DNA of 64,000 nucleotides from an uncultured Clostridia bacterium (GTDB lineage: Bacteria > Bacillota > Clostridia > Christensenellales > Aristaeellaceae), in NCBI GenBank assembly GCA_946414315.1, contig CAMKNZ010000010.1, positions 1 through 64,000 on the forward strand, given 5' to 3'. This document shows positions 19,270 to 50,005 of the stretch, piece by piece. Under the pieces are notes generated by a model. That model had not been told where the DNA came from. It saw nothing but the letters and a program-made list of their open reading frames with translations, and did not search any database. How positions within the stretch are numbered: the stretch's first letter is position 1; each line of letters starts with the position of its first letter. The position numbers and the translations under genes were made by a program.

Positions 19270-19950
19270 TCAGGCGTCGCCGTTTACATTGCGGATGTAA
19301 TCTTCTGCGGAGATCATCGGCGTTTCCAGCGCCGCGACTGTTTCCGCGGACAGTTTCAGGCTGGCGGCATATTCGGCGCCGGCCTGCTCAAAGCGCGCCA
19401 GCAGCGGATCCGCCACGACGGCTGCCGCGGGCACGTTCAGCAGCGGCGTTTCCGGAACACATACCATGGTCGGATCCCCGAAGCAGGTTTTACACATCAT
19501 CTTCAGGCCGTCAAAATTCCCTTCCCAGTGCGGGAAACCGCAGCCGCAGATCACCAGGGTATGGATCCGGGAGAAATCGGCCAGCGCCTCATGGCGCACC
19601 GTTCCGTCCGCCTCCTGTACCATTTTCATCTGAACCAGCGGGATCGTCCGGTCCAGGAAAGCCTTCAGGTGGGAAGGCATGCCGTAGCAATACAGCGGGA
19701 AGCTCCAGATGATCACGTCCGCGTCCCGGTACAGGTCCAGGATCCCGTTCTGGTCGTCCTGGATCACGCAGTGGCCGTCCATCCGCTGCCAGCAGCCGAA
19801 GCACCCTCTGCAGGGCGCGATTTTTTTGTCAATCACGTTGATCACATGGATCTCGTGCCGATCCGTCCCCATGCCCTTCAGGAACGCTTCCGTCAGCCGG
19901 AATGTATCGCTTCTCTTTTTGGGGCTGCCGTTCAATACAAGTACTTTCAT
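19270..19950 (-). CDS. NADPH-dependent FMN reductase/flavodoxin family protein
   Basis: A 226-residue flavoprotein with MKVLVLNGSPKKRSDTFRLT (FMN phosphate loop) and CRGCFGCWQRMDGHCVIQDD, the cysteine pattern of the WrbA/iron-sulfur flavoprotein group. IIWSFPLYCYGMP is the second flavin loop. The ATG at 19950 has AGGAG 7 bases upstream. It is the first gene of a run with the TIGR04076-like and DUF3795-MBL genes, which mirrors the flavodoxin next to a DUF3795 protein at 9.4-11 kb. Confidence 0.85.
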   Translation of the reverse strand: MKVLVLNGSPKKRSDTFRLTEAFLKGMGTDRHEIHVINVIDKKIAPCRGCFGCWQRMDGHCVIQDDQNGILDLYRDADVIIWSFPLYCYGMPSHLKAFLDRTIPLVQMKMVQEADGTVRHEALADFSRIHTLVICGCGFPHWEGNFDGLKMMCKTCFGDPTMVCVPETPLLNVPAAAVVADPLLARFEQAGAEYAASLKLSAETVAALETPMISAEDYIRNVNGDA

Positions 19951-19981
19951 TTGCTTTCTCCTGAATAATCCGTGAATATGC

Positions 19982-20434
19982 TTACAGGTTATACTGCATG
20001 AATTTTCCGTTCTTTTTGAATCCGAAGGCTGTATAGAGCAGCACGCCCATGTCGGATGCCGTAATCTGCACACATCCGCAGCCGTAGGCACGGGCTTCGT
20101 CCGTCACCCGTCTCAGCAGTTCCTTCCCGATTCCGAGCCGGCGGTAGCCCGGATCCGTAAACATGCTGGAAAGCAGTCCGATCCTGCCGGAGGGGCAGCT
20201 GAAATACGGCGGTTTCTCCACAAAGGACATTCCGCTGGTTCCGACGATTTTTTCCCCGTCCAGCGCCAGCCAGGAAACAAAGGTCCCGTCAGCCAGGTGC
20301 CAATGATAGTAATCTTTCAGGGCGGGAACCAGGTCAATCTGCTCCGTCGCGCCTTCCTCCCGCAGCTGCGTGATCCGCATGCTGATGAAGGTTTCCAGAT
20401 CATCTTCCGTCAGTTTTCTGTAGGTGATGTTCAT
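19982..20434 (-). CDS. GNAT-family N-acetyltransferase
   Basis: A 150-residue acetyltransferase with the acetyl-CoA loop in DPGYRRLGIGKELL and the end FGFKKNGKFM. The start ATG overlaps the stop of the upstream alpha/beta hydrolase gene by four bases (ATGA), so the two are translationally coupled. Substrate unknown. Confidence 0.85.
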   Translation of the reverse strand: MNITYRKLTEDDLETFISMRITQLREEGATEQIDLVPALKDYYHWHLADGTFVSWLALDGEKIVGTSGMSFVEKPPYFSCPSGRIGLLSSMFTDPGYRRLGIGKELLRRVTDEARAYGCGCVQITASDMGVLLYTAFGFKKNGKFMQYNL

Positions 20435-21267
20435 TTCCTTACCTCTTCATACCACTTTCCGTTCCGGGCCGCCTGCCGCAGGAACCGGTCCGCTTCCCCG
20501 GTCAGTTCCTCCACCAGGTCCATGTCGATGTTGTGTCCGCAGTTGGAATACATAACCAGCTTGCAGTGCGGCAGGCACTGTGCCGTCCGCATCATCAGGG
20601 CAGGCGTGCTGATCGGGTCCTCCGCGCCGCCGAGGATCAGCACCGGCGTCCGGATGCTCTTCAGCGCCTCCTGCAGTTTTTCTTCCGAGCCGAGGCCCAT
20701 CAGGGGCCGGCCGTAGTCGACGGCTTTCTCCCGCGGATCCGCTTCCGGCAGGCTTTTGAGCCATTCCGCCCGTTCCGCGCGCCGCGCCTCCCGGGCTTCA
20801 TCCTGCTCAATGGGCGGATCAAAAGGCGGCGGTGCGGAGATGATGCCCTGCATCAGCATCTGCCGGTAGGACATGGTGCCCTCCGCCAGGCTGTGCGGTC
20901 CGGGAACCACCGCGACAAAGGCTGCCACCCGTTCCGGATGCCGGAGGGCCAGATGCCAGCCGACACCGGCCCCGTGGGATGCCCCCATATAGAAGAACGT
21001 ATCCAGTCCCAGTTCATCCGCCAGGCAGGCCACGTCATCCGCGAACCGGTCATACCAGCCGGTACCGTAATCCTCCGTCACAAAGGACGAAGGGGCAAAG
21101 CCGCGCAGCGTCATGCAGTATACATGGTATCCCCGCTCCGCCAGGCTTTGCTGCAGGCCTTTGGGATAGAATCCGGCCTGCGCTGAGAGAATCACTTTGT
21201 CTCCGGTTCCGTATTCGTCATAGTGCAGCGTCATTCCGTCCGCTGTGGTGAATGCATATCCTTTCAT
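20431..21267 (-). CDS. Alpha/beta-hydrolase
   Basis: A 278-residue alpha/beta-hydrolase fold enzyme. The nucleophile elbow is GASHGAG, the acid is in LGGAEDPIS and the histidine is in NCGHNIDMD. There is no signal peptide, so it acts in the cytoplasm on an unknown ester, amide or epoxide. GAGGGG precedes the ATG. It is coupled to the GNAT gene downstream and follows the YbaK gene by 12 bases. Confidence 0.86.
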   Translation of the reverse strand: MKGYAFTTADGMTLHYDEYGTGDKVILSAQAGFYPKGLQQSLAERGYHVYCMTLRGFAPSSFVTEDYGTGWYDRFADDVACLADELGLDTFFYMGASHGAGVGWHLALRHPERVAAFVAVVPGPHSLAEGTMSYRQMLMQGIISAPPPFDPPIEQDEAREARRAERAEWLKSLPEADPREKAVDYGRPLMGLGSEEKLQEALKSIRTPVLILGGAEDPISTPALMMRTAQCLPHCKLVMYSNCGHNIDMDLVEELTGEADRFLRQAARNGKWYEEVRK

Positions 21268-21279
21268 GGTCCCTCCGCG

Positions 21280-21750
21280 TTATTCCGGCTGTTTGCACAC
21301 GTCCACCCACTCCGTATAGCCGCTGCATCGTTCCAGCTCCGGAATGGTCAGTTTCACCCCGCTGTGGTCATTGCCCACCGCGGGATAAACGATCTCATGT
21401 TTCCGCAGGCTTTCGTCCAGGTATACGGTCACGCCCTCGTTCGCGCCGAAAGGGCAGACGCCGCCGATCTCGTGCCCCACCAGTGGTCCGACCAGATCCG
21501 CCGGGATCATCTTTGCCTTGCAGCCGAACCGGTCTTTATACTTCCGGTTGTCGATGCGGGCAACGCCGTCCGCCAGGATCAACACCGGCTTTCCGTCCTG
21601 CAGGAAGGACAGCGTCTTGCAGATCATCGCCTCTTCGCAGCCGATCGCTTCGGCCGCTTCCGCCACTGTCGCGCTGCTGTGTTCCGTCTCGATGATCCGG
21701 TCCGTCAGGCCGTAACCGTCCAGGTATGCCTTTGCCTTCTCAAACGCCAT
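21280..21750 (-). CDS. YbaK/EbsC-family aminoacyl-tRNA deacylase
   Basis: A 156-residue YbaK/ProX-type protein, which hydrolyses mischarged aminoacyl-tRNA such as Cys- or Ala-tRNAPro. Visible elements are SSATVAEAAEAIGC, ICKTLSF with the conserved Lys, LILADG and GHEIGGVCPFG. The ATG at 21750 is preferred because AGGAACGGAG precedes it; an ATG eight codons earlier is in frame. It heads a short set with the hydrolase and a GNAT. Confidence 0.87.
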   Translation of the reverse strand: MAFEKAKAYLDGYGLTDRIIETEHSSATVAEAAEAIGCEEAMICKTLSFLQDGKPVLILADGVARIDNRKYKDRFGCKAKMIPADLVGPLVGHEIGGVCPFGANEGVTVYLDESLRKHEIVYPAVGNDHSGVKLTIPELERCSGYTEWVDVCKQPE

Positions 21751-21819
21751 AGTTCTATGCTCCGTTCCTTTCATCGTATCACGAGTATTGTACCGCCGCA
21801 CCTTGGTATCTGGCAACAG

Positions 21820-21855
21820 AAAAGAACGTCTATTCCAAAGAAGAGACGTCCTTTT
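21820..21855 (-). terminator. Terminator of the methyltransferase/GNAT operon
   Basis: AAAAGAACGTCT and AGACGTCCTTTT form an imperfect stem; on the minus strand a T-rich stretch follows. It lies 10 bases after the stop of the methyltransferase at 21865. Confidence 0.7.
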
Positions 21856-21864
21856 CTTATCCCG

Positions 21865-22674
21865 TTAGTCCTTTCGCGAAACAATCATCAGGTGTTCCGT
21901 GTGGGTCAGGTAATCCCGCTTTTCGCAGAACCGGAGCGCGTAGTCATACCAGGCCATCCGGATCTTTTTCGGCTGCTTCGCCAGTTCATTCCTGTAGGGT
22001 GCAAGGATGCTCTCCTGGCCGAAAACAGTCTCCGTACTCAGCCCCGGAACGGATGCCAGCAGCTGCTCCGCGTCCCGGACCGTAGTCATATACGAATAGG
22101 TAAAAGCGTCAAACGCCAGGCTTTCATCCTTCGCGGCCACTTCAAAATACTGCTGTTCCCGCGGCATCAGGATGGTTTCCTGCAGATCCCGCAGTCCGTA
22201 AACCACGCCGCCGAACATCAGGATGAAACTGCTGAACAGGAATCCGCCGGGCTTCAGCACGCGCTTTGCTTCCTCAATGGCCCGGATCCTGCTTTCCTCG
22301 TTCATCAGGTGATACAGCGGTCCCATCAGGAATACGGTATCAAACGAATCGTCTGCGAACCGGGAAAGGTCCGCCGCGTCGCCCTGCTCCGCGGCAATCT
22401 TCACGCCGTACTGCCTGGCCTTCTTTTTCGCAAAGCGGACGTTCTCGTCACTCAGGTCCAGCAGCGTCACACCGTGTCCCTGCTTCGCGTAATGAATGGC
22501 GTAATGCCCGGGGCCTCCGCCGATGTCCAGAATCCTGTCACCGGGTTTGATATACCGATCCATCATCCGGATCGTGATGTATTTTTCATAGGGATGCTTT
22601 TTCTTCAGCCGGTCCCATTCCTTCTGCGGATTGGCGTTGTAATGAGATCGGATCTCGTCTTTCTTTTCCTGCAT
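21865..22674 (-). CDS. SAM-dependent class I methyltransferase
   Basis: A 269-residue methyltransferase with motif I LDIGGGPGHYAIHYAKQG, the acidic residue in VTLLDLSDENV, GDAADLSRF (motif II) and a post-motif VLKPGGFLFSSF. The target is unknown. It is the last gene of a five-gene minus-strand run (24978 to 21865) of acetyltransferases and methyltransferases that begins just after the leader cassette at 25.0-25.2 kb. Confidence 0.88.
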   Translation of the reverse strand: MQEKKDEIRSHYNANPQKEWDRLKKKHPYEKYITIRMMDRYIKPGDRILDIGGGPGHYAIHYAKQGHGVTLLDLSDENVRFAKKKARQYGVKIAAEQGDAADLSRFADDSFDTVFLMGPLYHLMNEESRIRAIEEAKRVLKPGGFLFSSFILMFGGVVYGLRDLQETILMPREQQYFEVAAKDESLAFDAFTYSYMTTVRDAEQLLASVPGLSTETVFGQESILAPYRNELAKQPKKIRMAWYDYALRFCEKRDYLTHTEHLMIVSRKD

Positions 22675-22695
22675 CCTGCTTTCCTTCTTTCTTCT

Positions 22696-23091
22696 TCAGC
22701 CTGGATTTCTGCTCATCGCCCTGTCGCCTGCGGATCCAAACCCGTACTGCGCATACAGTCCGTGAGCGTCCCGGGTCAGCAGAAGCCCGCGCAGCCCGGA
22801 AAACTTTGACGTGATATGGGATACCAGGGCTTTGCCCAGTCCCTGATCCCGGTATTCCGGGTCGATGATCACATCGCACAGATACCAGGTGGTGGCGTAG
22901 TCGCTGATCACCCGGGCAAAGCCGGTCAGTTTCTGGTCTTCCCCGCTCCGGATCCCGAAGCAGGCCGAGTTGCGCATGGACTTTTCAATGGTTTCCGTGG
23001 GGCGCCTGTCCGCCCAGTAGGTCATCTTCAGCAGCTTTTCCACCTCACAGACCTTCATCTGATCCGCGCCTTCAATGATCCTGTATTCCAT
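22696..23091 (-). CDS. GNAT-family N-acetyltransferase (short)
   Basis: A 131-residue acetyltransferase with DVIIDPEYRDQGLGKALV as the acetyl-CoA site and YAQYGFGS near the C-terminus. GGGAGGAGC precedes the ATG. It is in the middle of the GNAT/methyltransferase operon. Substrate unknown. Confidence 0.85.
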   Translation of the reverse strand: MEYRIIEGADQMKVCEVEKLLKMTYWADRRPTETIEKSMRNSACFGIRSGEDQKLTGFARVISDYATTWYLCDVIIDPEYRDQGLGKALVSHITSKFSGLRGLLLTRDAHGLYAQYGFGSAGDRAMSRNPG

Positions 23092-23105
23092 GGCCGCTCC
23101 TCCCT

Positions 23106-23663
23106 TTATCTCCTGATCTCCCGGATCATACAGTACTCGTTCAGCAGCGTGCCGTCCCTCAGCCGGATGGCATTCGGATTGATGCCGGTGATCCGGAAGC
23201 CCATTTTCTCATACAGCGCCCGGGCCCGGGTATTGCCCTCCACAAACTCCAGCTCCATCTGGATCAGGTTTTCATTCGCCTCCGCGATCCGGATCATCTC
23301 CTCAAACATCCTGGTTCCGATACCCAGATTCCAGAATTCCTTCAGCAGCGCGATCGCCACGCTGGCCCGATGCCTTGTTTTGATCCCGGTCTTCCACGCG
23401 ATCTGGCAATTTCCCGCCACCTTCCCGTCGACGATGCACACAAGCATAGCCTCGTTTTCGGAAGCGTTGATCCGGTCAAAGAGGGCTTTCTCCCCCTCGT
23501 ATGTATATTTGCCGCACTCCTCGGGATAGCGGAGAATGAATTCCGTCTCCCCCGCGGACACATACAGGTAATCCAGCACGCCCCGGATATCCTCGTCCTT
23601 CGGGCTGCGGAGCAGGGCCTTCCGGCCGTCTTTCAGTGTAAACGCTGTATCTTTGATGATCAT
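23106..23663 (-). CDS. GNAT-family N-acetyltransferase, paralogue of the gene at 42482
   Basis: A 185-residue acetyltransferase. It begins IKDTAFTLKDGRKALLRSP and carries FWNLGIGTRMFEEMIR and the closing ALYEKMGFRITG. The same order of motifs, with high identity, occurs in the protein at 42482-43033, so the two are paralogues in two separate clusters. The protein has the RimI/RimJ-like layout common for resistance-type and protein acetyltransferases. The ATG at 23663 has a G-rich ribosome binding site. Confidence 0.86.
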   Translation of the reverse strand: MIIKDTAFTLKDGRKALLRSPKDEDIRGVLDYLYVSAGETEFILRYPEECGKYTYEGEKALFDRINASENEAMLVCIVDGKVAGNCQIAWKTGIKTRHRASVAIALLKEFWNLGIGTRMFEEMIRIAEANENLIQMELEFVEGNTRARALYEKMGFRITGINPNAIRLRDGTLLNEYCMIREIRR

Positions 23664-23680
23664 TGTTTTATCCCCCCGTT

Positions 23681-24463
23681 TTATTTCTTTTTCAGGATAT
23701 CCAGCGTGTGGTGCGAGGCGCCGATCAGGTCCTGGCGTTCGCAGATCGCGAAATGGTATTCCAGCCATTTGCCGAAGGTTTCGTCATCCATGGCGTCGAT
23801 GGTTTCACGCATGTAGTTCGTCGCGCCGTCCGTCGCAACCAGCTTGATCCGTTCTGCCGGAAACTCGGCGTCCAGGGACGCGATATCCTCCGTGCGCACG
23901 AGGTCGAACAGTTCCGACGGATCGCTGGCGCAGTGCCAGTCCGGTGTAACCAGGTTCCGGTCCAGTGCGTAACGCAGGTTGTTGCCCCGGAACATAAAGC
24001 CGATCACGCTTCCCTCGTTCATGCAGTAGGCAACCAGGACAGATCCGCCGGGTTTTGTCACCCGCATGGCTTCCGCCAGGGCCCGGACCTTGTCCTCCCT
24101 TGTGTAAAGATGGTACATCGGTCCGAGCACCATCGTCAGGTCATACGCTTCGTCCGGCAGAAAGGACAGGTCCAGCGCGTTGCCCTGAAGCGCCCGGATG
24201 GGTTCCGTTCCGTCCAGCTTGGACTTCAGGACCTCCAGGTTGTGCTGAATCAGTTCCACCGCCGTGACCCGGTATCCTTCCTTCGCCAGGGTAACGCTGT
24301 ACCGGCCTGTACCGGCGCCGACTTCCAGGATGTTCGGTTCCGCGGTCTCCCCAAGACATTCTCGGATGTATTTCATGGTGGTCAGGTATTCCACCTGCCC
24401 GTGGCGGGAAAGAAGCCTTTCCTCCTCGTTATAGTTGTTGTAGTATTCGTCAAGGTAATTCAT
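23681..24463 (-). CDS. SAM-dependent class I methyltransferase
   Basis: A 260-residue enzyme with motif I LEVGAGTGRYSVTLAKEG, VTAVELIQHN, LQGNALDLSF and VTKPGGSVLVAY. The target is unknown. Its start overlaps the stop of the GNAT gene upstream by four bases (ATGA), so translation is coupled. It belongs to the operon headed by the leader cassette. Confidence 0.88.
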   Translation of the reverse strand: MNYLDEYYNNYNEEERLLSRHGQVEYLTTMKYIRECLGETAEPNILEVGAGTGRYSVTLAKEGYRVTAVELIQHNLEVLKSKLDGTEPIRALQGNALDLSFLPDEAYDLTMVLGPMYHLYTREDKVRALAEAMRVTKPGGSVLVAYCMNEGSVIGFMFRGNNLRYALDRNLVTPDWHCASDPSELFDLVRTEDIASLDAEFPAERIKLVATDGATNYMRETIDAMDDETFGKWLEYHFAICERQDLIGASHHTLDILKKK

Positions 24464-24978
24464 CCGAACAGCCTCCTGTACAGTTTTGCGGGAATCACTT
24501 CGCTCCCGTCCAGTTTCCGGATCTCCGTTTCACCCGCATAGGTCATGCCGAGCTTTTCCATCACGCGCCGGCTTTTATGGTTCTCGTTGGCGAAGCTTCC
24601 CTGGATTCCCCGGACTTTCCGCTGTGTTCTGACATATTCCAGAACGCCCCGGATCGTTTCCCCGGCATACCCGTGTCCCCACTGGTCCTTCCGCAGGTTG
24701 TACCCGATCGTCCACAGGTCGTCTTCCGGCTTGTAAAACAGCCCGCCGCTGCCGATCAGCTCCCCGGTTTCCTTCAGGACGATCCCGGCATCGTAATCAT
24801 CCGGGTCTTCCGGATCCAGGCTTTCCAGCCAGGTCCGGACGTCCTCGGCCCTGGTATAAACAGGATAGACCATATACCTCACAACATCCGGATCGCCGCA
24901 CCACCTGAATGCCGCCTGCCAGTCGTCAGGCGTCAGGTTGCGCAGGATCAGCCGTTCGGTTTCAATGTGGATTTTCAT
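24460..24978 (-). CDS. GNAT-family N-acetyltransferase (RimJ/RimL type)
   Basis: A 172-residue acetyltransferase that starts IHIETERLILRNLTPDDW, the classical RimJ/RimL opening, and has LRKDQWGHGYAGETIRGVLE as cofactor site. AGGAGG lies 8 bases ahead of the ATG, and the leader-cassette terminator lies 30 bases upstream. It is therefore the first gene whose transcription would be controlled by the proposed attenuator at 25008-25229. Confidence 0.88.
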   Translation of the reverse strand: MKIHIETERLILRNLTPDDWQAAFRWCGDPDVVRYMVYPVYTRAEDVRTWLESLDPEDPDDYDAGIVLKETGELIGSGGLFYKPEDDLWTIGYNLRKDQWGHGYAGETIRGVLEYVRTQRKVRGIQGSFANENHKSRRVMEKLGMTYAGETEIRKLDGSEVIPAKLYRRLFG

Positions 24979-25007
24979 GGTCTTGTCCTCCTGTAAAACA
25001 ATATATC

Positions 25008-25038
25008 AAAAAACCGCTTATCTGTCAGAGATAAGCGG
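25008..25038 (-). terminator. Attenuator terminator of leader cassette, copy 1
   Basis: A perfect 10-bp stem (25014-25023 with 25029-25038) and a five-base loop are followed on the minus strand by six T. The 5' arm plus loop (25024-25037) can instead pair with the last codons of the leader reading frame (25069-25080), with only a two-base bulge, so an antiterminator is possible. Confidence 0.8.
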
Positions 25039-25065
25039 CTGTTGATCGATATACGGATATACCGG

Positions 25066-25164
25066 CTACGCTTCTCTGACGGTTGGATAATGGTATACGG
25101 AAACAGAGCGGACATGGTCTTCAGTGTTCGCCGGCAGGATATTGACAAGCCAGAACCGTTTCAT
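25066..25164 (-). CDS. 32-residue leader peptide, copy 1
   Basis: A 32-codon frame starts at ATG 25164, has AAGGAGC upstream (about 11 bases), and ends with TAG at 25066. It shares 14 of 32 positions with the peptide at 45009-45107, including ANT-x2-HVR in the middle and RE at the end. It has its own promoter and terminator. The last codons (VREA) encode the antiterminator strand. I infer a regulatory leader peptide; a free-standing microprotein is the alternative. Confidence 0.65.
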   Translation of the reverse strand: MKRFWLVNILPANTEDHVRSVSVYHYPTVREA

Positions 25165-25199
25165 GCGAAGATCCGCTCCTTTCCGAATGAATTGCACAG

Positions 25200-25229
25200 A
25201 CTATACAACGAAAAAACAATTTGTGTCAA
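25200..25229 (-). promoter_or_regulatory. Promoter of leader cassette, copy 1
   Basis: On the minus strand TTGACA (25229-25224) and TATAGT (25205-25200) are separated by 18 bases. The second cassette has the same elements and spacing. Confidence 0.8.
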
Positions 25230-25250
25230 GCAGAAATTAACGGGATGCCC

Positions 25251-41331: not shown

Positions 41332-41793
41332 TTACAGCTTACGAATCGGGAAATACATATAATTCTTCCCGGTTTTCGGATTGCTGAAATCATTCACCGC
41401 ACCGGCCAGCGAAAGATTGTTTCCGCTCATGTATTTCAGCATCTCAGCAAATGTCTGATCGTTCTCGTGTTCCACAACCAGAAACTCATATCCGGGAATG
41501 ACCCATTTCACCCATCCTTCAGGGGCTTCTGCGTCATCCCTGCATTCTGCCCCTGCCAGATATAGTCCCCTGTTGAAATCATCCCATGGCTTAAAGGAAC
41601 GGGAAAAATCAGTCATGGTCCCCCATATGCCGACGAGGTTACCGGATTCCTCTTTTTTTGCCAGATCAGCGATCTCATCAAAATGGGTATTGGCATCCTG
41701 CCAAAGTCTCTGAATGAAGCCTTCTCCATCCAGGGTTGATCCTTCTTTTCCGATGACCACAAACGAGTCTTTGCGGATTTTCTCAATCTTCAT
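41332..41793 (-). CDS. Stand-alone GyrI-like/AraC effector-binding protein
   Basis: A 153-residue protein of the GyrI/SOUL-like effector-binding fold: KIRKDSFVVIGKEGSTLDG at the start, GLYLAGAECRDDAEAPEGW in the middle, and a late GNNLSLAGAVNDFSNP. No DNA-binding domain is attached. It could bind small hydrophobic compounds. AAGGAG precedes the ATG. It is the third GyrI-like domain in this island. Confidence 0.75.
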   Translation of the reverse strand: MKIEKIRKDSFVVIGKEGSTLDGEGFIQRLWQDANTHFDEIADLAKKEESGNLVGIWGTMTDFSRSFKPWDDFNRGLYLAGAECRDDAEAPEGWVKWVIPGYEFLVVEHENDQTFAEMLKYMSGNNLSLAGAVNDFSNPKTGKNYMYFPIRKL

Positions 41794-43892: not shown

Positions 43893-44411
43893 TCAAAGCG
43901 TGATCCAGTATTTCTCCAGCTCGATCTTTTCATCCGGTTCATACACCGTGGATTCATATACGCCGCCGTTGTTCAGGATCGTCCTTTTGCTGCCCTCGTT
44001 TCCTTTGATGCAGGTGATCAGCACCCTGCCGATGCCAAGCTCTCTGCACACCGGGAGCGCGGTCTTCAGCATCTGCGTCGCATAGCCCCTGCGCCGTTCG
44101 CTGGGAGCAACGGAATAACCGATGTGGCCGCCGAACTTTTCCAGGTACTCGTTCAGGAAATGCCTGATATCAAGCATCCCGACGATTTTGTCATCCTCTT
44201 CCCGCACAAAGATGAGCTGTGTGGCCGGCACCCGGCCTTCCGGGATCGTCTTCGGATCCCTGTGCTTTGCCAGGAAATCGATCCATTCCTGCGGATCGTC
44301 GAATTTGCTGAGTCTGCCGGTACCGTCCATGGAGTCTCCGCTTTCCATAAACTCCTGCCGGTACGCCCGGATCTGCCTGTCGTATTCCATCGTCGGCTCG
44401 ATCAGTTTCAT
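43893..44411 (-). CDS. GNAT-family N-acetyltransferase
   Basis: A 172-residue acetyltransferase with IGYSVAPSERRRGYATQML as cofactor site and TILNNGGVYEST later. The YsnE/aminoglycoside-like layout (N-terminal 60 residues of helices, then FVREEDDKIVGMLDIRHFLN) is similar to the GNAT half of the GNAT-YdcF fusion. The start at 44411 overlaps the stop of the upstream 2H phosphoesterase gene by four bases. Confidence 0.86.
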   Translation of the reverse strand: MKLIEPTMEYDRQIRAYRQEFMESGDSMDGTGRLSKFDDPQEWIDFLAKHRDPKTIPEGRVPATQLIFVREEDDKIVGMLDIRHFLNEYLEKFGGHIGYSVAPSERRRGYATQMLKTALPVCRELGIGRVLITCIKGNEGSKRTILNNGGVYESTVYEPDEKIELEKYWITL

Positions 44412-44923
44412 TTGTTCATCACGCCTTCCAGTGCAAAAGATGCGATTTCCCGTGTTGGCCAGAATGCGCACAGATGCAGCCGGACGATTCTGGCTGTAAA
44501 CGGAACAAAAGATTTCACGAAAACCGGTATTGCCGCACAAATTGTTTCCGGTTCGTCAATCAGCATGGTGACATGCAGCGTCCATGGATACTGCTGCGGC
44601 GCATCCGACCGGCAGGCTTCCTGCAGCGCGTTCAGTTCCTCATTCTTCTCCGGCGCGGCAAAGAGAACCTTTCCTCCGGCGAACATGCCGATATGGCTGA
44701 GATGCACCGGTACAGGCGCATGTTCTGCCGCGGCTTTTCGCGCGATTTCGGCAGCTTCTTTCTCCTGGTCCGGGGAAAAGGTTGACAGGCTGATATGGTA
44801 AGGAAGCCCTGGCGTCTGAATGCCGGTAAATCCTGCCTCCTGCAGGGAACGATACCATCCGGACATCCGCGCCTGCGCTTCATCGTCCAGGTCTGCCATC
44901 AGTGTCAGGAACTGCTCTGCCAT
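44408..44923 (-). CDS. 2'-5' RNA ligase/2H phosphoesterase family protein
   Basis: A 171-residue 2H-superfamily protein with the paired motifs YHISLS and LHVTML, each His-x-Ser/Thr. Such proteins hydrolyse cyclic phosphates or 2'-5' bonds in RNA or nucleotides. AAGGAG lies 10 bases ahead of the ATG. It is the first gene after the second leader cassette (terminator 29 bases upstream), so it would be the first target of that attenuator. Confidence 0.85.
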   Translation of the reverse strand: MAEQFLTLMADLDDEAQARMSGWYRSLQEAGFTGIQTPGLPYHISLSTFSPDQEKEAAEIARKAAAEHAPVPVHLSHIGMFAGGKVLFAAPEKNEELNALQEACRSDAPQQYPWTLHVTMLIDEPETICAAIPVFVKSFVPFTARIVRLHLCAFWPTREIASFALEGVMNK

Positions 44924-44951: not shown

Positions 44952-44984
44952 AAAAAGCCGCTTACCTGTCAGAGATAAGCGGCT
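44952..44984 (-). terminator. Attenuator terminator of leader cassette, copy 2
   Basis: AGCCGCTTA (44956-44964) pairs with TAAGCGGCT (44976-44984); on the minus strand a T-run follows. Sequence 44969-44979 can pair instead with 45014-45022, the end of the leader frame, with a two-base bulge, just as in copy 1. Confidence 0.8.
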
Positions 44985-45008: not shown

Positions 45009-45107
45009 TTACTCTTCTCTGATCTTCCGGTAATCGGATACGACAATAACGCGGACATGTTCAACAGTGTTCGCAGACAGTACAGGGACAAATCCGAACC
45101 AGTTCAT
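45009..45107 (-). CDS. 32-residue leader peptide, copy 2
   Basis: A 32-codon frame from ATG 45107 (AAGGAG 8 bases upstream) to TAA 45009. It shares 14 of 32 positions with copy 1, including ANT-x2-HVR and RE near the end; both have aromatic residues at 3-6. The spacing promoter, ribosome binding site, frame, terminator is the same as in copy 1. No membrane segment or known toxin signature. Confidence 0.65.
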   Translation of the reverse strand: MNWFGFVPVLSANTVEHVRVIVVSDYRKIREE

Positions 45108-45138
45108 GAGAAGAGCTCCTTTCCGAAAGTTTGCGCTC

Positions 45139-45168
45139 ACTATACAACGGAAAGCAAGTAAAAGTCAA
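45139..45168 (-). promoter_or_regulatory. Promoter of leader cassette, copy 2
   Basis: TTGACT (45168-45163) and TATAGT (45144-45139) on the minus strand are 18 bases apart. Confidence 0.8.
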
Positions 45169-49341: not shown

Positions 49342-49363
49342 AGTGCGGGAAACAGGACTTGAA
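49342..49363. repeat. tRNA-Leu 3' end, direct repeat partner of 34152-34173 (right att)
   Basis: This is the 3' end of the intact tRNA-Leu gene and its two flanking bases. The identical left copy lies 15,190 bases away in the same orientation. Confidence 0.7.
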
Positions 49364-49427
49364 CCTGCAAGTACGTACGTACACATGAACCTGAATCATG
49401 CGCGTCTGCCAATTCCGCCATTCCCGC
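49344..49427 (-). tRNA. tRNA-Leu (anticodon CAG)
   Basis: The acceptor stem GCGGGAA/TTCCCGC, the anticodon loop TTCAGGT, a long variable arm built of GTAC repeats and the T-loop TTCAAGT are all present. The class II long variable arm supports Leu. CCA is not encoded. It is the last gene of a seven-tRNA cluster and the integration target of the island. Confidence 0.93.
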
Positions 49428-49436
49428 AGAAGATGG

Positions 49437-49518
<82 letters not shown>

Positions 49519-49549
49519 ATATTAAGTTCCCTCTTGACCCAAAGGGTGG

Positions 49550-49622
49550 AGCTGGCGATGGGACTCGAACCCGCAACCTGCTGATTACAAATCAGCTGCT
49601 CTGCCAATTGAGCTACGCCAGC
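49550..49622 (-). tRNA. tRNA-Thr (anticodon TGT)
   Basis: Acceptor GCTGGCG/CGCCAGC, D-arm TAGCTCAATTGG, anticodon loop TTTGTAA, T-loop TTCGAGT. CCA is encoded (49547-49549). Confidence 0.94.
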
Positions 49623-49659
49623 ACGAAGCTCGTTACTGCGGATCCAACCTGAAAAGTGG

Positions 49660-49733
49660 CGACCCGGAAGGGGCTCGAACCCTCGACCTCCAGCGTGACA
49701 GGCTGGCGCTCTAACCAACTGAGCTACCGGGCC
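49660..49733 (-). tRNA. tRNA-Asp (anticodon GTC)
   Basis: Acceptor GGCCCGG/CCGGGTC with discriminator G, anticodon loop CTGTCAC, T-loop TTCGAGC. CCA is encoded (49657-49659). Confidence 0.94.
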
Positions 49734-49743
49734 AAATAGGCTG

Positions 49744-49817
49744 TGGGCCTTCAGGGACTTGAACCCCGGACCAACCGGTTATGAGCCGGCCGCTCTGACC
49801 AACTGAGCTAAAGGCCC
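49744..49817 (-). tRNA. tRNA-Met (anticodon CAT, elongator)
   Basis: Acceptor GGGCCTT/AAGGCCC, anticodon loop CTCATAA, T-loop TTCAAGT. The first acceptor pair is G-C, so it is not the initiator. A lysidine-modified tRNA-Ile2 also has a CAT gene anticodon and cannot be fully excluded. CCA is not encoded. Confidence 0.88.
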
Positions 49818-49838
49818 ATATCGGAAAGGAAGAAAAAG

Positions 49839-49911
49839 TGACTCCGCCGGGATTCGAACCCGGGTAGCCGCCGTGAAAGGGCGGTGTCTTAGGCCTCTTG
49901 ACCACGGAGCC
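49839..49911 (-). tRNA. tRNA-Glu (anticodon TTC)
   Basis: Acceptor GGCTCCG/CGGAGTC, anticodon loop CTTTCAC, T-loop TTCGAAT. CCA is not encoded. Confidence 0.94.
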
Positions 49912-49930
49912 ACGTACGAGGCGATTTGAG

Positions 49931-50005
49931 TCGGGGTGAAGGGATTCGAACCCCCGGCCCCATGCTCCCAAAGCACGTGCGCTAGCCAGACTGCGCTACA
50001 CCCCG
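49931..50005 (-). tRNA. tRNA-Pro (anticodon TGG)
   Basis: Acceptor CGGGGTG/CACCCCG, anticodon loop TTTGGGA, T-loop TTCGAAT. It is the first tRNA of the cluster in the direction of transcription. Confidence 0.94.

Follow-up and report, generated by a model that had tools for sequence, protein, structure and literature searches.

Two candidate attenuators and their genes

A gene predicted to encode a GNAT acetyltransferase of 172 aa (24460..24978, minus strand; Pfam Acetyltransf_3, E 1e-31) lies within the window, by which we mean the whole 64-kb stretch of DNA analyzed. It is followed on the same strand by a run of genes (19270..24463) whose spacing suggests an operon. This run encodes a methyltransferase (24463-23681), two GNATs (23663-23106 and 23091-22696), a second methyltransferase (22674-21865), an aminoacyl-tRNA editing domain protein (PF04073, YbaK-like; 21280-21816), an alpha/beta hydrolase (21267-20431), a further GNAT (20434-19982), and an FMN reductase (19956-19270). 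The editing domain protein is a translation-linked enzyme amid acetyl- and methyltransferases. For ten genes at this locus, the first GNAT included, every NCBIfam model shown stayed below its cut-off; therefore, we claim no known resistance enzyme here.

Based on sequence, the region ahead of this GNAT (copy 1, 25229-25008) and a second region (copy 2, 45168-44952), both on the minus strand, look like leader-ORF transcription attenuators. Copy 1 begins with a promoter, TTGACA-N18-TATAGT (25200..25229, with TTGACA at 25229-25224 and TATAGT at 25205-25200), which was also recovered by a scan. A leader ribosome binding site, AAAGGAGC (25175..25182), precedes an ORF (25066..25164) of 32 sense codons, MKRFWLVNILPANTEDHVRSVSVYHYPTVREA (25164-25069), that ends in TAG (25068-25066). 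Within the ORF, an internal hairpin, P2 (25108..25131), pairs GCGAACA with TGTCCGC and contains one conserved A.C mismatch. The final sense codons form region R2, GTCAGAGAAGCG (25069..25080), which sequence, alignment, and a swap test identify as the proposed antiterminator strand. Next comes an intrinsic terminator (regions R3 and R4; 25008..25040), in which a hairpin at 25040-25012 has a perfect 10-bp core and two outer pairs, the R3 arm and loop contain 25037-25024, and six T follow at 25013-25008. AGGAGG then precedes the GNAT start codon, an ATG at 24978.

An earlier note on this DNA had described the copy 1 promoter, ribosome binding site, 32-codon frame, terminator, and GNAT ribosome binding site, and each lies where the note had placed it. 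The complementarity it had drawn between GTCAGAGAAGCG (25080-25069) and CGCTTATCTCTGAC (25037-25024), apart from a two-base bulge, is exact, and the other copy implied by its label “copy 1” is the one that we located at 45168-44952. In a scan of the copy 1 region, two promoter-like sites were found, compared with a mean of 0.5 in shuffled sequences, and three terminator-like sites, one of them copy 1’s own, compared with 0.2. The second promoter-like match (CTGACA-N17-TATATT, 25028-25000) falls within the copy 1 terminator and probably reflects chance.

Copy 2 has a promoter, TTGACT-N18-TATAGT (45139..45168), and a region R1, CTCTTCTC (45108..45115), between its ribosome binding site and the leader ATG; R1 is the complement of GAGAAGAG (45019-45012). 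The leader ORF, MNWFGFVPVLSANTVEHVRVIVVSDYRKIREE plus TAA (45009..45107), contains R2, TCAGAGAAGAG (45012..45022), whose partners are either R1 or R3 (TCTCTGA, 44975-44969), and the intrinsic terminator spans 44952..44984. The two copies are 20 kb apart and precede different first genes. Their peptides share 14 of 32 residues, whereas the likeness of their leader DNA exceeds that of the peptides and is highest at the ribosome binding region and the terminator. Copy 2 is followed, also on the minus strand, by genes for a 2'-5' RNA ligase superfamily protein (44408..44923; Pfam), a GNAT (44411-43893), a methyltransferase (43896-43057), and another GNAT (43033-42482). Downstream of these genes, the product of 41332-41793 (minus strand) weakly matches Cass2, an integron-associated effector binding protein (28.4 bits, cut-off 27). 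Elsewhere in the window, seven tRNA genes (Leu, Tyr, Thr, Asp, Met, Glu, and Pro) cluster at 49343-50005 on the minus strand.

Related leaders within the genus

We used peptide profiles and a covariance model to identify related leaders. A profile built from the two peptides matched 22 of 200 relatives, with strong matches confined to the window’s own genus; a profile of 22 peptides gave 44 matches in 25 of the 45 genomes available for the genus, including 9 of the 13 near-complete ones. The covariance model was built on 28 leaders, with R1:R2, P2, and the terminator as its structure and R2:R3 left out. At E 0.1, 28 of the 45 genus genomes matched, the richest of them with 10 rows. Across the family at E 0.001, matches occurred in 26 of 45 genomes within the genus and in 8 of 263 outside it, spread over five genera; across the order, a single genome beyond the family (G149) matched, weakly (E 6.8e-5).

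The final table lists 93 leaders, at most nine per genome; of the 27 genomes that carry them, 25 are among the 45 of the genus and two belong to other genera. Four of the leaders are in the window’s own genome, a 2.24 Mb bin that is 60% complete. Forty of the 93 are peptide-profile matches, after removal of four from the 44: G040b (a chance match), G027d and G033a (contig ends), and G023b (no terminator). The other 53 come from 61 further places, eight of which were excluded on visual inspection (G023d, G006, G010d, G005g, G025, G011, G042, and G010e); the first three of these appear to be deletion remnants. The ORF length window of 25-55 codons dropped nothing besides these eight. The tabulated set omits four weak sense-strand and nine antisense or overlapping covariance-model rows, G149, and six of the eight matching genomes outside the genus. 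Of the 93 leaders, 91 have a promoter matching TTGACn-N15..19-TAnnnT no more than 85 nt from the leader start, and 92 have an intrinsic terminator before the first gene according to the scan. The terminator of the remaining leader, G016d, was missed by the T-run rule of the scan, and this leader is omitted from every count over 92.

Average linkage at 35% peptide identity grouped the 92 leaders with a scored terminator into 17 classes. Single linkage, which lumped all 92 into one cluster and so allowed no test, gave way to average linkage, run with three cut-offs.

Two leaders (L053, G023:C92; L141, G023:C112:721-840) look decayed: one has no terminator, and the other lacks most of its ORF while retaining a terminator ahead of a methyltransferase. 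At L086 (G040:C7:133927-133989), an inverted repeat spells GCGAACACTGT / ACAGTGTTCGC, and we take this peptide match to be chance. The covariance model identified no leader at the GNAT relatives of 58-59% identity in Butyrivibrio (L193-L195), where the sequence upstream of L195 spans only 328 nt. A similarity search of phage and plasmid DNA with the 401-base leader region returned no match.

Conserved and competing base pairs

Four regions were compared among leaders: R1, before the leader start; R2, the ORF tail; and R3 and R4, the terminator arms. In the alignment of 28 leaders (A5), the terminator stem is paired in 99.0% of cells, with three pairs showing two-sided changes. The antiterminator R2:R3 is paired in 91.1%, also with three such pairs (e.g., AU to GC), compared with at most 51.3% in slid registers; covariation of this pairing in related genomes had been proposed in the earlier note as a check. 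P2 is paired in 85.7% with two two-sided pairs, its covariation score was reached in 0 of 500 shuffles, and its A.C mismatch is retained in 25 of the 28 leaders. R1:R2 is paired in 86.2%, also with two two-sided pairs. Within class A, the number of two-sided R1:R2 pairs is ordinary (235 of 500 shuffles), and the covariation score was reached by 4 of 500.

Because these shuffles take no account of relatedness among leaders, we used a between-class swap test in which R1, R2, or R3 was exchanged among the 17 classes (92 leaders) and the duplex energy was recomputed. Mean R2:R3 energy was -16.4 kcal/mol native versus -12.5 kcal/mol swapped, a loss of 3.9; mean R1:R2 energy was -15.1 versus -11.6 kcal/mol, a loss of 3.5. 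For both pairings, 0 of 20,000 permutations reached the native value. The native pairing exceeded the class’s own swapped mean in 16 of 17 classes for R2:R3 and in 15 of 17 for R1:R2, and dividing the leaders into 28 or 46 clusters left the result unchanged. No gain was seen for the control pairs (R1:R3, 17,499 of 20,000; mid-ORF:R3, 8,897 of 20,000). Native pairing of R1 with the mid-ORF was weaker than swapped pairing (19,768 of 20,000 permutations were no higher than the native value), a pattern that resembles avoidance of false partners competing with R2. Since R1:R2 was part of the search model, the test was repeated on leaders outside the model’s training set (64 leaders, 15 classes), again with 0 of 20,000 for both pairings. 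Frame and pairing, on whose conservation in relatives the earlier note had staked its reading, are thus both conserved across the genus.

Minimum-energy folds agree with the swap test but discriminate poorly. In simple fold counts, the background is high, with R1:R2 at 0.90 native, 0.64 swapped, and 0.40 shuffled, and R2:R3 at 0.89, 0.70, and 0.52. With R4 present, the terminator is favored in 73 of 92 folds; therefore, the switch must be kinetic.

Several leaders depart from this pattern. An anti-antiterminator that competes with the antiterminator is supported for the family by the swap test and is seen in copy 2, but fold counts give zero R1:R2 pairs in copy 1. A three-base insertion lies in R1 of copy 1 and of G034a, a nearly identical relative, and in the fold the copy 1 R1 pairs with the mid-ORF. 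R1:R2 pairing is complete (100%) in class B (19 leaders, including own3 of the window’s genome), and four leaders show a two-sided change at one pair, although a +3 slide scores slightly above it (0.151 versus 0.143). The class B antiterminator as drawn shows no two-sided change and a covariation score reached in 110 of 500 shuffles, so it is unsupported there; six or more R2:R3 pairs form in just 32% of class B leaders and in neither of the two leaders of the G015e class. In G010c (L061, G010:C35), the leader ORF passes through R2 and the terminator stem and stops inside the stem. A translating ribosome would therefore block this terminator, and the scheme proposed below would not fit.

Leader ORF and peptide constraint

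The leader ORFs are 27 to 50 codons long. In 92 of 92 leaders, no stop interrupts the start frame before R2, whereas the +1 and +2 frames are open in 4 and 26 of 92, respectively. In 75 of 92 leaders, no more than 15 nt separate the end of R2 from the stop codon, and the stop lies 24-26 nt ahead of R3 in 49 of 92. ORF indels in A5 are multiples of three, except in G020b (L076), which has a frameshift before the tail.

Within classes, pN is lower than pS in 13 of 14, with dN/dS of 0.41-0.88 and, once, 1.65; leader residues are therefore only loosely held. The conserved features of the peptide pattern suggested in the earlier note in good part reflect the RNA. The “RE” at the end of the peptide codes for R2, and the frameshifted G020b keeps the RNA tail TCAGAGAAGAG while losing the residues. 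The ANT..HVR motif overlaps P2, the internal hairpin that carries two-sided changes.

Compared with downstream proteins, leader peptides are poor in Glu (2.6% versus 8.1%) and Asp (3.1% versus 6.0%), which could stem from avoidance of GA-rich rivals of R2. They are richer in Met (6.0% versus 2.8%), His (4.2% versus 2.2%), Thr (9.2% versus 5.1%), and Tyr (6.0% versus 4.1%). No single-codon run was visible by eye in the tabulated peptides. As pointers to a particular drug, macrolide +X+ motifs and Ala/Ser/Thr content were judged too weak.

Proposed mechanism and alternatives

We consider it highly probable that these leaders are translation-dependent transcription attenuators in which three pairings exclude one another: an anti-antiterminator (R1:R2), an antiterminator (R2:R3), and a terminator (R3:R4). 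The leader-ORF attenuator and the pairing of tail with terminator arm were already part of the earlier interpretation; the part it had missed is R1, which pairs with the same tail. The leaders have a promoter, an open frame, pairing conserved with covariation, and a terminator; from this anatomy, we infer an order of events and a ribosome-targeting inhibitor as the usual trigger. With no ribosome on the leader, R2 would be captured by R1 as it emerges, and the terminator would form (OFF). Since R1 pairs with the ORF tail, untranslated RNA would thus also be OFF, this arm being absent in copy 1. A ribosome completing the short ORF would cover R2 at the stop codon, and the terminator would again form (OFF). 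A ribosome that has initiated and stalls or crawls upstream of the tail would cover R1 or keep it from closing, leaving R2 free; R2 would then pair with R3 before R4 is made, and RNA polymerase would enter the operon (ON). Such a switch would tell apart no ribosome, a fast ribosome, and a slow ribosome, and open for the slow one only.

Three other explanations were rejected. If the RNA were a riboswitch or a protein-binding element with an incidental ORF, the structured and covarying P1 and P2 would be accounted for, but not a frame open in 92 of 92 leaders versus 4 and 26 of 92 in the others, a retained start codon and ribosome binding site, or A5 indels in threes bar G020b. Rfam 15 at gathering score also identified no such family: the 64-kb window gave only the seven tRNAs and no cis-regulator, T-boxes and riboswitches included, and lax thresholds gave only sub-threshold matches, the best being the trpB motif at 24.4 bits versus 59. 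We regard this explanation as very improbable. We give equally little credence to a separate gene for a small protein, complete with terminator, ahead of an operon with its own promoter; the ORF does have a strong promoter, a ribosome binding site, and a terminator, but the gap of ~30 nt between the copy 1 terminator and the GNAT leaves no space for a promoter, and the tail is matched class-specifically to the terminator arm. An amino-acid or tRNA starvation attenuator of the trp/his type, in which the leader senses charged tRNA and the operon answers starvation, would share an identical four-region logic, and both the richness of some classes in Met, Tyr, Thr, or His and the tRNA-editing domain protein in the copy 1 operon would suit it. 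The absence of single-codon runs noted above, the lack of any residue run common to the 17 classes, and the absence of amino-acid biosynthesis enzymes from the 40 Pfam-scanned proteins, which cover part of the first genes, make sensing of a single amino acid less likely; amino-acid transport and synthetase genes were likewise not found downstream among those 40. Overall, we judge starvation sensing improbable.

A drug-specific arrest peptide, with each class arresting on the compound that its own operon handles, is a possibility that we take seriously but think unlikely. There are many classes, each partly with its own gene set, mild purifying selection acts in 13 of 14 classes (dN/dS 0.41-0.88), and the known leaders of ermC, msrD, and similar genes are described as arresting in this way in the available text of two papers (PMC12121999, PMC12421871). 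Against this, the constraint is weak and dN/dS is 1.65 in one class, the class containing copies 1 and 2 (own1) precedes seven different first-gene clusters, and the best conserved residues sit in RNA helices. Such a loose peptide would better fit a general sensor of slow translation. Because the device stands ahead of many operons per genome, we read the translation-dependent attenuators as an RNA-only regulon that would induce acetyl- and methyltransferases under translation stress; the multi-copy switch in this one rumen genus probably turns on these operons only when the leader ribosome stalls. The fuller version is a distributed, protein-free translation-stress regulon, in which one design was copied and diverged before up to about 10 operons per genome, the peptide serves mainly as a ribosome track, and any slowed ribosome turns the whole set on; we put this at a little under an even chance.

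Relation to known attenuators

In the vmlR leader of Bacillus subtilis, as described in the available text (PMC9226507), a uORF, an anti-antiterminator, an antiterminator, and an intrinsic terminator are combined, and stalling of a ribosome on the uORF keeps the anti-antiterminator from forming. The scheme proposed here would have the same four parts and stall logic, compared by description rather than by sequence; copies 1 and 2 have a translated-looking uORF with a ribosome binding site, an intrinsic terminator, and an antiterminator that overlaps the terminator arm. Whereas vmlR is reported there as a single leader with a three-codon uORF inside the anti-antiterminator, an ABC-F gene, and a response to cognate drugs, the present leaders form a family with ORFs of 27-50 codons, R1 upstream of the start codon, and GNAT/methyltransferase operons. 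The best reading would be vmlR-type attenuation copied before many operons, with a presumed inducer.

The toiL uORF of E. coli topAI-yjhQ is proposed, in the portion available, to sense ribosome inhibitors of several classes, with stalling anywhere unmasking the downstream gene (PMC12121999). That proposal fits the loose peptide constraint in our leaders, but toiL acts via translation and Rho-dependent termination, with no intrinsic terminator (PMC12121999). The wblC leader is described as responding to starvation as well as to a wide variety of inhibitors (PMC12421871). The WblC/whiB7-type and ARE ABC-F attenuators of Actinobacteria use ribosome-mediated attenuation, as proposed here; according to the available text, the WblC/whiB7 leader controls one transcription factor and through it a regulon, whereas here the leader itself seems to have been copied before each operon (PMC12421871). 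Related attenuators before more than one gene per genome are also described for Firmicutes his leader peptides (hisS*, hisZ) and ABC-leaders, but the former sense codon runs before tRNA synthetase paralogs and the latter precede ABC transporter paralogs; the available part of that paper makes no mention of acetyltransferase or methyltransferase attenuators (PMC2965389). We found no paper on this leader family among the open-access papers searched, and an earlier description may exist in subscription papers or preprints. The kind of switch is known; its multi-copy form is what would be new. Inducible attenuators are usually described gene by gene, and this family would represent an RNA switch spreading into a regulon without a protein regulator, and its natural sequence variation provides covariation data on the R1/R2/R3/R4 logic.

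Genes downstream of the leader family

At least 73 of the 93 leaders are followed within 140 nt by the start of a gene with a ribosome binding site; this count is a lower bound, with the GNAT-like first gene of G319 lying outside it and only ~330 nt downstream covered for G008g. First-gene families were named from BLAST clusters, with Pfam run on representatives only. They include 31 class I methyltransferases (30 + 1), 18 GNATs, six GNAT and/or nitroreductase proteins, and one marginal GNAT. A few are predicted to encode a phosphodiesterase, a 2'-5' RNA ligase, a HAD protein, a nucleoside phosphorylase, an alpha/beta hydrolase, or an RsgA-like protein (by eye for G017). Class B leaders precede related genes in many genomes; own3 (L081:3120-5958, G000:C1) is followed by a methyltransferase, then an RsgA GTPase and an APH-family phosphotransferase.

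If the distributed regulon exists, the set switched on would comprise unstudied GNATs, methyltransferases, and 2'-5' RNA ligase-like, RsgA-like, and APH-like proteins, and rumen Clostridia would have, in these operons, a new reservoir of enzymes that modify ribosomes or antibiotics. The leaders would mark unannotated acetyl- and methyltransferases that a rumen bacterium deploys when its ribosomes are hindered, and because the leader tells when the GNATs are made, the question of their targets becomes testable.

Two first-gene families (L140:544-951 and L167:3013-3336; 136 and 108 aa) are without a Pfam match. Among named records, the nearest is the sheep rumen MAG RGIG6893, with a GNAT at 97% identity.
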